From the IMG/VR virus record IMGVR_UViG_3300009181_000033, positions 1 to 64,000 of that record: a DNA stretch of 64,000 nt, one strand, 5' to 3'. The stretch's first letter is position 1. Every line of letters begins with the position of its first letter. Shown one piece after another: positions 2,309 through 9,382 of the stretch. Under the pieces are notes generated by a model, which searched no databases, had not been told where the DNA came from, and was given only the letters and a program-made list of their open reading frames with translations. The translations under genes were made by a program, and so were the position numbers. Origin of the DNA: a virus.

Positions 2309-3697
2309 ATGCCTAAAATAATATCGATAACTGGCAGTTCAGGTGTGGGTAAAACTACAATATCGAACGTCATGTCTTTGGTGTTGGGTCAACACAACAG
2401 CTGTCAAATAAGCGGTGATGATTTACATCTTTGGGAAAGGGGTGACAAAAATTGGGAAAACGTGACCCACTTAAATCCCAAAGCAAACAATTTAGAATTG
2501 GGTAAATTGCACTTAAGCTTATTAAAGCAAGGGTTATCAATCAGTAGAAAAAAATATAATCATGATACTGGGTTATTCTCTGAGCCCATTGCGATAGACT
2601 CTCGAGATTGGATTATATACGAAGGATTGCATGCCTTATATGGAGACGCAAAAGATCTCGCGGACTTAAGAATTTATGTTGAAACTTCGGATGAGCTAAA
2701 AGCGGATTGGAAGATTAGACGAGACGTCAATAAAAGAGGTTACACCAAACAACAAGTCTTAAGAACTATCAGCGCAAGAAAACAAGACGAGACATCATAC
2801 ATTCAACCACAAAAAAAATATGCTAATGCCATTATCGTCTTTAACGAAAATAATGGAAAGATAGAGATGTCATACGTTTGCATCGATGAAGAATATGAAG
2901 TCATAATGAAAAAAGTCAAAGACTTTTATGACACCATGAATGGTTTTTTTGAACTATGTAAAAAACTCTCTTTAGAACCATCCTTGGTGCAAGGCAAAGG
3001 AGGAAACGTTTCGGCAAAATTTCAAGACTCGATAATCATTACCTCTTCTGGACAAAACATTGGTGATGTAAGTTGGGAAAGTGGATTTTGCGTGTGTAAA
3101 AAATCTAAACTCTCAGAAAAAGACGAAGATTCATTTTTACAAACATGCAGGGCCAGTAAGCTTTCCGGTTATAAACAGCCTTCTATGGAGCTAGGAATAC
3201 ACAAGAAAACATCGCACAAATATGTTGCTCATACACACCCTGTGCATTTAAACAGTATTCTTTGCAGCAGCGAATCCAAAGAAATATTGCAAACAATATT
3301 TCCAACATTAAAATATGACTATGTTAGATACTCTAACCCCGGACTCGATTTGTTCCTCAATTTCAATCCAGAGAACAACATAGTTTTCTTAGAGAATCAC
3401 GGATTAGTGGTTTCAGGAAATGATGAAAATGAAGTTTTTGAAATCACAGCAGATATCGATAGAAGGTGCAAAGAATGGATCTCAAAGAATTCGGAGCCGC
3501 ACACTGGATTAAAACAACGAACCCTTAATGACAATCATCTATTCCCAGATTCAGTTATTTTTCCTGAAGAAATGGCGTACATTGTCGAACAAATCTTTCA
3601 TAATATATATGCTGCCGGACTTTCACCCCGCTTTCTCAAGGAAGAGGATGTTCTTTATGTGAAAGAAATGAAGGCTGAAAAGGATAGAAAGAAATGA
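2309..3697 (+). CDS. Fusion of uridine-kinase-like P-loop kinase and class II aldolase
   Basis: 462 residues in two domains. Residues 1 to about 200 form a P-loop kinase of the uridine kinase/phosphoribulokinase type: Walker A GSSGVGKT at 9-16, then SGDDLHLW and IIYEGLHALY. Residues about 205-400 are a class II aldolase/adducin domain: a GGNVSA phosphate-binding loop, TSSGQN, then HTHPVH with H308 and H310 and ENHG with H364, matching the zinc ligand pattern of fuculose-1-phosphate aldolase. The frame is continuous, so the fusion is real in this sequence. Kinase plus aldolase could interconvert a sugar or short-chain phosphate, but the substrate is unknown. It overlaps the nucleotidyltransferase by 4 bases. 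Confidence 0.8.
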   Translation: MPKIISITGSSGVGKTTISNVMSLVLGQHNSCQISGDDLHLWERGDKNWENVTHLNPKANNLELGKLHLSLLKQGLSISRKKYNHDTGLFSEPIAIDSRDWIIYEGLHALYGDAKDLADLRIYVETSDELKADWKIRRDVNKRGYTKQQVLRTISARKQDETSYIQPQKKYANAIIVFNENNGKIEMSYVCIDEEYEVIMKKVKDFYDTMNGFFELCKKLSLEPSLVQGKGGNVSAKFQDSIIITSSGQNIGDVSWESGFCVCKKSKLSEKDEDSFLQTCRASKLSGYKQPSMELGIHKKTSHKYVAHTHPVHLNSILCSSESKEILQTIFPTLKYDYVRYSNPGLDLFLNFNPENNIVFLENHGLVVSGNDENEVFEITADIDRRCKEWISKNSEPHTGLKQRTLNDNHLFPDSVIFPEEMAYIVEQIFHNIYAAGLSPRFLKEEDVLYVKEMKAEKDRKK

Positions 3698-4527
3698 AAG
3701 TCATTGTGCCGATGGCAGGAACAGGTGATCGATTTATTGCAAAAGGATATATTGATCCTAAGCCACTTATAAAAGTAAATGGAAAAAGGATCATTGAGTA
3801 TATTGTAGAAATGTTTTCAAATGAAGATGAATTCATCTTCATTTGCAATGATGAACATTTAAAAAATACCGACATGAGAAATTTATTGCTCCAGTTGGTT
3901 CCAAATGCAAAGATAAGATCCATTCCTAAACACAAGCTTGGGCCTGTTCATACTGTGATGGCTGCAATTGACGAAATAAAAGAAGAAGAAGAAGTCTTAA
4001 TATCTTATTGTGACAATCCTTTTATTTGGAATGAGCAAGCATTTAGAAGTCATGTGTTAGAAAACAATTTGGATGGCTGTATATTGACCCATAGCGGATT
4101 TCATCCGCACACGCTAGCCAATACAAAAATGGCATTCGTTAAATCGACCACTGATGGATTGGTTGACGAGATAAAAGAAAAACAGTGCTATACATCAGAA
4201 CCAATGAAAGAACATGCTTCAACAGGAGCATATTACTTTAAAAATGGTTCATTAATAAAAAGATTTTTCAATGAACAATTGAAAAATGGGATTCACTATA
4301 ACGGAGAATACTATGTTACATTGACCTATAATCTTTTAATTAAAAATGGTTATAGGGTTGGATATTATGACACACCACTAGTAACCGTTTTTGGTACGCC
4401 AGAGGAAGTTCAAAATTTCGAAGCATGGTCTACCATATTAAAAGGCGATCAAGTAAAAAGTGAAGAACAATTGGTGCAGTGTTACAGGTATTGGAAAAAA
4501 TATCATGCAAAAAGTGATTTATATTGA
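3694..4527 (+). CDS. Sugar nucleotidyltransferase (NTP_transferase family)
   Basis: 277 residues. The N terminus VIVPMAGTGDRF followed by PKPLIKVNGK is the signature of sugar-1-phosphate nucleotidyltransferases: the glycine-rich NTP loop and the catalytic lysine in the PKPL motif. LISYCDNPF is the usual D-containing metal site. It would make an NDP-sugar or similar activated compound for the neighbouring glycosyltransferases. It sits directly after the kinase-aldolase fusion and overlaps a HAD phosphatase, a grouping common in capsule clusters. The substrate is not predictable. Confidence 0.75.
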   Translation: MKVIVPMAGTGDRFIAKGYIDPKPLIKVNGKRIIEYIVEMFSNEDEFIFICNDEHLKNTDMRNLLLQLVPNAKIRSIPKHKLGPVHTVMAAIDEIKEEEEVLISYCDNPFIWNEQAFRSHVLENNLDGCILTHSGFHPHTLANTKMAFVKSTTDGLVDEIKEKQCYTSEPMKEHASTGAYYFKNGSLIKRFFNEQLKNGIHYNGEYYVTLTYNLLIKNGYRVGYYDTPLVTVFGTPEEVQNFEAWSTILKGDQVKSEEQLVQCYRYWKKYHAKSDLY

Positions 4528-7484: not shown

Positions 7485-8450
7485 ATGAAAATTGCATTAA
7501 TAACGGGGACAACAGGGCAAGACGGTTCTTATCTTTCAGAACTATTGTTGTCTAAAAATTACAAGGTCATAGGCATCAAAAGACGCACGTCAGTTCTTAA
7601 CACTTCGAATGTTGATCATTTATATAGCAATCCAAATTTCAAATTGCTGTATGGCAACATGAATGACACCGGATCAATGTATAGATTGTTATCCGAACAC
7701 AAGCCGGATGAAATCTATAATTTAGCCGCGCAATCACACGTTAGGACTTCATTCGATGTTCCGGAGGAAACTGTTGACACTGTTGCAATGGGAACTATGC
7801 GTCTATTGGAAGCGGTAAAGAATGTTGTACCAAATGCCAAATTTTACCAAGCATCTTCTTCAGAGATGTATGGCGACAACATGGATCCAATGAAAAACGA
7901 ATTCACACCAATGACACCAGCCTCCCCTTACGCAGCAGCAAAATTATTTGGACACAACTTGGTGAGAAATTACAGGGAAGGCTATGGTCTTCACGCCTCT
8001 TCAGGAATCTTATTCAATCATGAATCACCCCGTCGTGGCGAAACATTCGTAACCAGAAAAATTACACGTGCTGTTGCTAGAATCAAATTAGGCAAACAGG
8101 ATAAAATTTTTCTTGGAAACCTAGATGCCAAGCGAGACTGGGGATTTGCCGGTGATTATGTTGAGGCAATGTGGCTCATGTTGCAACAGGACAAACCTGA
8201 TGATTACGTCATCGCCACAGGGGAATGTTATTCCGTTAGGGATCTTCTCGAGGTGGCCTTTGGATTGGCCGAACTTGACTATAAAAAATACGTTGAAATT
8301 GATCCAAGACTGTATCGACCACACGAGGTCCCATTTCTCCAAGGTGATTCTAGCAAGGCCCAGGGCACACTGGGTTGGAAACCAAAAACGTCATTCGATG
8401 AGCTAATAAAAATGATGTATCTTGCAGACATGCAAAAGGAACTAAAATGA
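7485..8450 (+). CDS. gmd: GDP-mannose 4,6-dehydratase
   Basis: 321 residues, an extended short-chain dehydrogenase. It has the NAD(P) loop GTTGQDG (G8, G11, G14), NLAAQSHV, the catalytic SSSE at 124-127 and YxxxK with Y149 and K153. The RRTS and [13 protein letters not shown] segments are typical of GDP-mannose dehydratases. The length is slightly below the usual 340-370. It makes GDP-4-keto-6-deoxy-mannose, which the next gene converts to GDP-L-fucose; the two overlap by 4 bases. This is one of the surest calls in the window. Confidence 0.95.
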
Positions 8451-9382
8451 AAGCAACAATTTTTGGGGCATCTGGCCTGCTGGGAAGTGAGTTGTTGTTG
8501 ACTCGTGACCCATCAATTTCCGTTTATTGTCCTACCTCAGACGGTGTTGACCTAGAAAGTCTTATTCCAACTTCAATAAATAATGATGTTTGGTTTAACT
8601 GTGCGGCCAAGGTAGGCGGAGTACAGGCAAACATAGAGCAGGTTTCTGATTTTTATAACATAAATTCAAGAATCAACAACAATGTATTCGAAGGAGCGCA
8701 CCTTAAAAATGTAAAAAAACTCGTGTCAGTGATGAGCACATGTATTTATCCGGACTCACAATATGTCAAATATCCATTGACAGAAGATCAATTGCATAAT
8801 GGTCCACCTCATCTTTCCAATTTTGGTTATGCTTATGCAAAGAGAATGATAGACGTGCAATCAAGAGCATATAGACAACAGTACAGCTGTAATTACGTAA
8901 CGGTGATTCCAAATAACTTATATGGTCTCAAGGATAATTACGATGTAAACAACGGACATGTGATTCCATCGCTTATAAGAAAGTTTTATGAAGCCAAAAA
9001 GGATGGAACTGACGTAACAATATGGGGCACGGGAAACCCCATGAGGGAATTTACTTATGCTAAGGATGCTGCAAAAATTATGTGGTGGATTGCCTCGAAT
9101 TATGATGGCTTCACCCCAGTCAACATTGGGTGCACCGATGAAATTTCAATAGGCGATCTTGCAGGACTAATCGGCAAAATCATCGGTTTCAAAGGCAATA
9201 TAAAATTTGATAAAACCAAGCCAGATGGACAGCTTAGAAAACCAAGCAGCAATAAAAAATTGAGGGATCTTGGTTGTGATTTTTCATATACATCCCTTGA
9301 ACAAGGTTTGACAGAAACGATAGAATATTTGCATAAAAAATATCCAAATTTAAGAGGAATCAAACAGGAGGCAATAATTTAA
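8447..9382 (+). CDS. fcl: GDP-L-fucose synthase (epimerase/reductase)
   Basis: 311 residues. It has the nucleotide-binding GASGLLG at 7-13, [18 protein letters not shown] around S97 and YxxxK with Y128 and K132, all matching GDP-4-keto-6-deoxymannose epimerase-reductase (E. coli WcaG: SSCIYP, Y136, K140). NNLYG and [11 protein letters not shown] are further family markers. It completes GDP-fucose synthesis from GDP-mannose together with gmd, and overlaps it by 4 bases. The GDP-mannose must come from the host or from genes outside the window. Confidence 0.92.

Follow-up and report, generated by a model that had tools for sequence, protein, structure and literature searches.

A phage gene joining a phosphoribulokinase-type kinase to a class II aldolase is one arrangement of a wider conserved five-part cassette

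Ribulose 1,5-bisphosphate (RuBP) is usually regarded as the substrate of Rubisco, and oxygenic hosts make it with a phosphoribulokinase (PRK) of their own. A comparable succession of phosphate transfers is found in the ADP-/GDP-heptose pathway, where a kinase, the HAD phosphatase GmhB and a nucleotidyltransferase are used: a bisphosphate is formed, its distal phosphate is taken off and the 1-phosphate is activated. At the residue level, the PRK of Methanospirillum (MhPRK) has been described to employ His55, Arg59, Tyr98, His100 and Lys151 for ribulose 5-phosphate (Ru5P) and Arg154 for ATP (PMC5241800), and the Asp/His dyad of PRKs has been described as well (PMC9978339). In haloarchaea, the conversion of RuBP via ribulose 1-phosphate (Ru1P) to DHAP and glycolaldehyde by a HAD enzyme and a FucA-like aldolase has been established biochemically (PMC9700705). 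Herein we compare these systems with a viral locus in which a kinase and a class II aldolase are encoded by a single gene (Table 1).

The stretch of DNA analysed (64,000 nucleotides, hereafter the window) is part of a virus record of 297,894 bp and belongs to a large (jumbo) bacterial phage, with PHROGs matches to baseplate-wedge, DNA-ligase and head/packaging proteins and a baseplate protein that shares ~30% identity with its counterparts in Flavobacterium, Microcystis and uncultured phages. The preliminary description had placed the gene in a sugar operon with a nucleotidyltransferase and a HAD phosphatase; both neighbours are indeed present, but they lie in the genome of a jumbo phage and not in a cellular operon, the idea of a bacterial operon being rejected on account of the 297,894-base virus record. 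The best PDB match of the nucleotidyltransferase was 4evw, an uncharacterised pyrophosphorylase (76 bits), which gives no pointer to a substrate, and the model of the short GDPD-like protein matches GDPDs weakly (E ~6e-4, TM ~0.5). The small HAD of the window and its counterpart in Synechococcus phage S-SM2 (L079:12306-12617) go by the name “phosphoheptose isomerase” in both S-SM2 and phrog_1238, while their sequence is HAD-hydrolase-like. A few genes downstream, amid glycosyltransferase-like genes, the window also encodes a GDP-mannose 4,6-dehydratase and a GDP-L-fucose-synthase-like epimerase (7485-9382).

Table 1 Positions of the fusion gene, its domains and the adjacent cassette genes in the window.
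Feature	Position	Strand	Remarks
Kinase-aldolase fusion gene, 462 aa	2309..3697	+	Single ORF; recurrent in viral contigs
PRK-type kinase domain, residues 2-181; P-loop 9-17	2312..2851	+	Pfam, PDB profile, residue alignment
Linker with long helix (residues ~187-222)	2867..2974	+	AlphaFold2 helix 194-222 joins both domains
Class II (FucA-type) aldolase domain	2930..3688	+	Phosphate-binding GN-S and SG motifs, catalytic set
Sugar-phosphate nucleotidyltransferase (phrog_3980; NTP_transf_3)	3694..4527	+	Corresponds to the first domain of a tandem pair in relatives
Capless HAD phosphatase-like protein, ~100 aa	4505..4807	+	phrog_1238; weakly TIGR01689 EcbF/BcbF
Short GDPD-like protein, 160 aa	4804..5286	+	HR-N, E-D and HD motifs; phrog_34507

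The fusion frame runs from ATG to stop without an internal stop codon, its ATG lying 2 bases after the preceding stop codon and its own stop overlapping the next start by 4 bases. Pfam recognises PRK (PF00485) at residues 4-176 (E 1e-38) and Aldolase_II (PF00596) at residues 214-389 (E 1e-14), the full aldolase domain extends over residues 208-460, and both active sites are complete. The AlphaFold2 model of the whole chain, for which 39 aligned sequences were the input, reached a pLDDT of 94.6 and a pTM of 0.92; this model, the Pfam domains and the intact ORF bear out the original observation of two enzymes in one frame. Foldseek matched the N-terminal half to PRKs (5b3f at 1.5 A over 179 aligned columns, 36% identity), and its list of the 50 best matches includes 3m4r, a class II aldolase.

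The kinase half had been taken for a uridine-kinase-like P-loop domain, an identity that we reject: when a profile built from 13 family members was run against the PDB, its highest score was 199 bits for PRKs and 88 bits for uridine kinases, i.e., about 110 bits lower, and the active-site residues differ. By alignment, D37, H40, R44, Y83, H85, K135 and R138 match the published PRK active-site residues, and they are invariant in 39/39 cassette kinases tested; H40, H85 and K135 are common to PRKs, while the corresponding residues of the two uridine kinases compared are Y, F and R. Against the curated NCBIfam models, the fusion kinase scored 183 bits with the PRK model NF005655 (cut-off 236) and 68-74 bits with the udk models TIGR00235 and NF004018 (cut-offs 220 and 180), in each case below the cut-off. 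Uridine is an unlikely substrate, and judged by its sequence the domain should best be named phosphoribulokinase-type. In the aldolase half the catalytic set is intact (E294, H308, H310, and H364 in fusion numbering), as had been noted for the metal histidines, and belongs to 17 columns, including the GN-S and SG motifs, that are invariant in 20 relatives. By analogy with FucA, we take E294 to be the acid/base, H308, H310 and H364 the metal ligands, and GN-S and SG the phosphate-binding motifs. Among solved structures, 3m4r (uncharacterised, Thermoplasma) and FucA come closest.

Using HMMs of the five neighbouring parts, namely the kinase, the aldolase, the HAD phosphatase, the nucleotidyltransferase and the short GDPD-like protein, we found all five co-located within ~8 kb in nearly every phage relative, and the kinase was present in 37/37 viral loci that had been fetched by aldolase patterns alone. 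The cassette also occurs in cells (Omnitrophota, a Woesearchaeota archaeon, SAR86, SAR324, Bdellovibrionota, and other Proteobacteria) and on plasmids of E. coli, Azospirillum and Hirschia. The cellular kinase is the C-terminal part of a ~690-aa protein with a GT-C-like multi-span N-terminal region, and its neighbours are a tandem nucleotidyltransferase, the GDPD-like protein, the HAD, usually the aldolase, and often GtrA and GT2 genes. The order GT-C/kinase, HAD, aldolase is found in three gammaproteobacterial genomes and on the E. coli plasmid, while in three clusters (G001, G539, and G008) no cassette aldolase lies adjacent, and a generic class II aldolase frame of ~660 aa is all that was found elsewhere. 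The fusion is one of several forms taken by this more widely conserved cassette. PRK-type kinases behind the multi-span domain were seen in bacteria and in one archaeal genome (L015-L023, L068-L071), and in plasmid records such proteins are annotated as uridine kinase or phosphoribulokinase. A complete cellular cassette with GtrA, GT2 and GT-C-like genes lies on an E. coli IncR plasmid (L061; NZ_CP145712, 5472-14434), and this 9-kb stretch is present in 2 of 5,426 complete E. coli genomes.

In 6/7 cellular clusters tested the best NCBIfam model of the HAD was NF053830 (ribulose-1,5-bisphosphate 5-phosphatase), with scores of 131-198 bits that fall below the cut-off of 330 and exceed the next model by ~30-100 bits. 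Since the HAD is nearest to a RuBP 5-phosphatase, the kinase, HAD and aldolase would match the succession Ru5P to RuBP to Ru1P to DHAP and glycolaldehyde. The phage HADs are of other types, being capless in the window and beta-phosphoglucomutase-like and fused to the nucleotidyltransferase in the phage contig L002, so the phosphatase step of the window would have arisen by non-orthologous replacement, and different HAD families seem, on sequence grounds, to fill this step.

A further arrangement was found in cyanophages. Synechococcus phages S-SM2 and Bellamy carry the tandem nucleotidyltransferase, aldolase, HAD and GDPD-like genes, and no kinase was found anywhere in either genome. A viral scan with their aldolases retrieved 46 kinase-less cassette contigs (S-SM2 and Bellamy included) and 34 contigs with the aldolase alone. 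The photosystem genes psbA/psbD were present in 14/14 kinase-less cassette contigs of at least 60 kb, none of which matched the kinase profile in a search backed by positive controls, and in 0/18 kinase-bearing cassette contigs of at least 59 kb (Fisher 2e-9 if contigs are independent, the kinase-less forms being one clade). In the aldolase tree all kinase-less and stand-alone forms fall into one clade, which implies one evolutionary loss and means that the psbA association amounts to about one event. PfkB was rejected as a general substitute for the kinase, as it was seen in 3/14 kinase-less records, two of them above the cut-off. Because oxygenic hosts supply RuBP themselves, a phage infecting them would need no kinase if the kinase product is RuBP; the absence of the kinase fits this expectation strikingly, yet the fit could be an accident. 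The stand-alone aldolases of the same family (L127-L160; L161:7998-8663, S-SCSM2R) have no other cassette parts beside them, and 10/11 of the records checked contain psbA/psbD; they are possibly auxiliary enzymes acting on host Calvin-cycle sugars. In two records, L108 (G387:C1:47278-49930) and L128 (G424:C1:79757-82223), the psbA/psbD matches lie in separated pieces, some with in-frame stops, and these genes may be intron-split or degraded.

We give about an even chance to the reading that the fusion works as a bifunctional enzyme within a sugar-building cassette, in which a pentulose phosphate has its phosphate moved from C5 to C1 and is remodelled and nucleotide-activated for glycans. The kinase half would phosphorylate Ru5P, or a very similar ketose phosphate, at C1 to the 1,5-bisphosphate, the HAD would remove the C5 phosphate to leave a ketose 1-phosphate, and the metal-dependent, FucA-type aldolase half would make or break its C3-C4 bond through a DHAP enolate, resulting in cleavage to DHAP and glycolaldehyde, in epimerisation, or in aldehyde exchange. 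The nucleotidyltransferase would then activate the resulting phosphorylated sugar for adjacent glycosyltransferases, and in cells the cassette, with its GtrA, GT2 and GT-C genes, would be expected to decorate a surface glycan. We infer the substrates, the order of the steps, the sugar activated by the nucleotidyltransferase, and the whole role of the GDPD-like protein, which has no obvious place in the scheme. The earlier suggestion that a phosphorylated sugar is handled around an aldol step is supported in outline, while the wider conserved cassette had been missed; with a phosphatase step presumed between kinase and aldolase, simple two-step channelling is not required. More tentatively, the cassette may define an undescribed route from Ru5P via RuBP and Ru1P to a nucleotide-activated, ketose-derived sugar in bacteria, at least one archaeon and phages, in which phages of Calvin-cycle hosts dropped the kinase as the host supplies RuBP, and others fused it to the aldolase.

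The alternative that survives best, though we consider it doubtful, is that the PRK-like kinase uses a different ketose phosphate, e.g., another pentulose or hexulose phosphate, with the HAD and aldolase following suit and a rarer activated ketose unrelated to RuBP as the product. The cassette kinases form their own clade apart from Calvin-cycle PRKs (89/82); W42 and H54 are invariant among them and W49 nearly so, none of which occurs in Calvin-cycle PRKs, and the glutamate preceding the GLH motif (E105), which every PRK tested has and the window kinase keeps, is replaced by C, S or Q in many members of the cassette family. These private residues and the variable E105 imply that the substrate may not be Ru5P, and the HAD and aldolase scores likewise remain under curated cut-offs (for the window aldolase, 24.9 bits against a cut-off of 300 with the ribulose-1-phosphate aldolase model NF053831). 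Against this, the kinase has the catalytic and phosphate-binding residues of PRK, the nearest relative of the cellular HAD is the RuBP phosphatase, and it is precisely the psbA-bearing phages, with hosts that make RuBP, that lack the kinase.

It is unlikely that the pair serves catabolism or central carbon metabolism, withdrawing pentose phosphate as DHAP and glycolaldehyde to supply energy or precursors, with the proximity to glycan genes being incidental. Such a role would accord with the haloarchaeal pathway, which is catabolic (PMC9700705), and with the stand-alone aldolases of psbA-bearing phages, but in the window, in phages and in cells the pair is tied within a few kb to nucleotidyltransferase and GDPD-like genes, and in cells GtrA, GT2 and GT-C genes lie alongside. 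Since the nucleotidyltransferase is nearly always present, we take the purpose to be the transfer of the phosphate from C5 to C1, remodelling by the aldolase and activation for glycans, not catabolism. Decidedly unlikely is a kinase that acts directly in glycan assembly, on a lipid- or glycan-linked sugar, while the aldolase modifies a separate precursor: the multi-membrane-span GT-C-like partner in cells, the glycosyltransferase-like N-terminal domain of many phage kinases and one phage kinase without an aldolase (L006) would suit it, but the PRK-type small-molecule site is conserved, the phage fusion ties the kinase to small-sugar chemistry, and the kinase is missing from otherwise complete cyanophage cassettes.

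The same continuous frame as in the fusion gene was found in 16 further IMG/VR contigs (L002, L024-L031, and L033-L039) from different samples, the fusion contigs representing ~10 lineages after clustering at 90% identity, and the linker is found in every fused relative. The fusions group together as a single clade of the kinase tree (98/98), which indicates one fusion event that has been retained since. Nested within this clade is the lone cassette-type kinase of a 268-kb phage (L006:6992-7675), in whose record the aldolase is absent. In close fusion pairs dN is well below dS for the kinase, the linker and the aldolase each, and the fusion is thus under purifying selection, linker included. 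Some 21 other phage contigs encode kinase and aldolase as separate genes, the kinase then having an unrelated glycosyltransferase-like N-terminal domain in place of the aldolase partner. Although such relatives could suggest that the frame is a sequencing or assembly merger of two genes, a refutation the preliminary description had itself raised, this explanation can be dismissed given the independent contigs, the single clade, the purifying selection across the linker and the confident single-chain model. No paper on a kinase-class II aldolase fusion or on its gene cluster was found in the open-access literature; the fusion is real and, as far as that literature shows and as had been supposed, apparently undescribed.

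If the proposed route is true, RuBP would gain a role in biosynthesis, beyond carbon fixation and the breakdown of nucleosides, and functions would be suggested for several families that are now hypothetical or misnamed (e.g., phrog_1238 “phosphoheptose isomerase”, phrog_3980, phrog_13212, and phrog_34507). The kinase-less cassette of psbA-bearing phages is a ready-made test of the kinase product.

Compared with known systems, the parts of the fusion are of known kinds and their arrangement is new. Class II PRKs (5b3f from Methanospirillum, the cyanobacterial and plant PRKs, and 9qkn-type enzymes) share with its kinase the fold, the P-loop, the Asp/His dyad and the His/Arg/Tyr/Lys residues for Ru5P, whereas the fusion kinase stands in a separate clade with private W42/W49/H54, has an aldolase in place of the PRK C-terminal domain and lacks a Rubisco context. 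FucA (2opi, 1fua) and other class II aldolases (3m4r) agree with the aldolase half in fold and in every catalytic and phosphate-binding residue, but the fusion aldolase sits behind a kinase, has a C-terminal extension and would act on a putative ketose 1-phosphate substrate. A related aldolase domain is also part of a bifunctional protein in RhaD-ADH (rhamnulose-1-phosphate aldolase/short-chain dehydrogenase, PRK08324), where the partner is a dehydrogenase instead of an N-terminal kinase. The logic of the cassette is like that of the heptose pathway, although the enzyme families differ and an aldolase is added. As to the haloarchaeal non-carboxylating pentose bisphosphate pathway (RuBP phosphatase NF053830, Ru1P aldolase NF053831; PMC9700705), the cellular cassettes have an NF053830-like HAD, scoring under the cut-off of that model, and a FucA-type aldolase, and their order of steps may be the same. 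However, that pathway reaches RuBP from guanosine via R15P isomerase and not via PRK (PMC9700705), and among the annotated genes near the plasmid clusters there was no R15P isomerase, R1P kinase or guanosine phosphorylase. As described, the haloarchaeal pathway is catabolic and has no nucleotidyltransferase, GDPD-like or glycan genes (PMC9700705).
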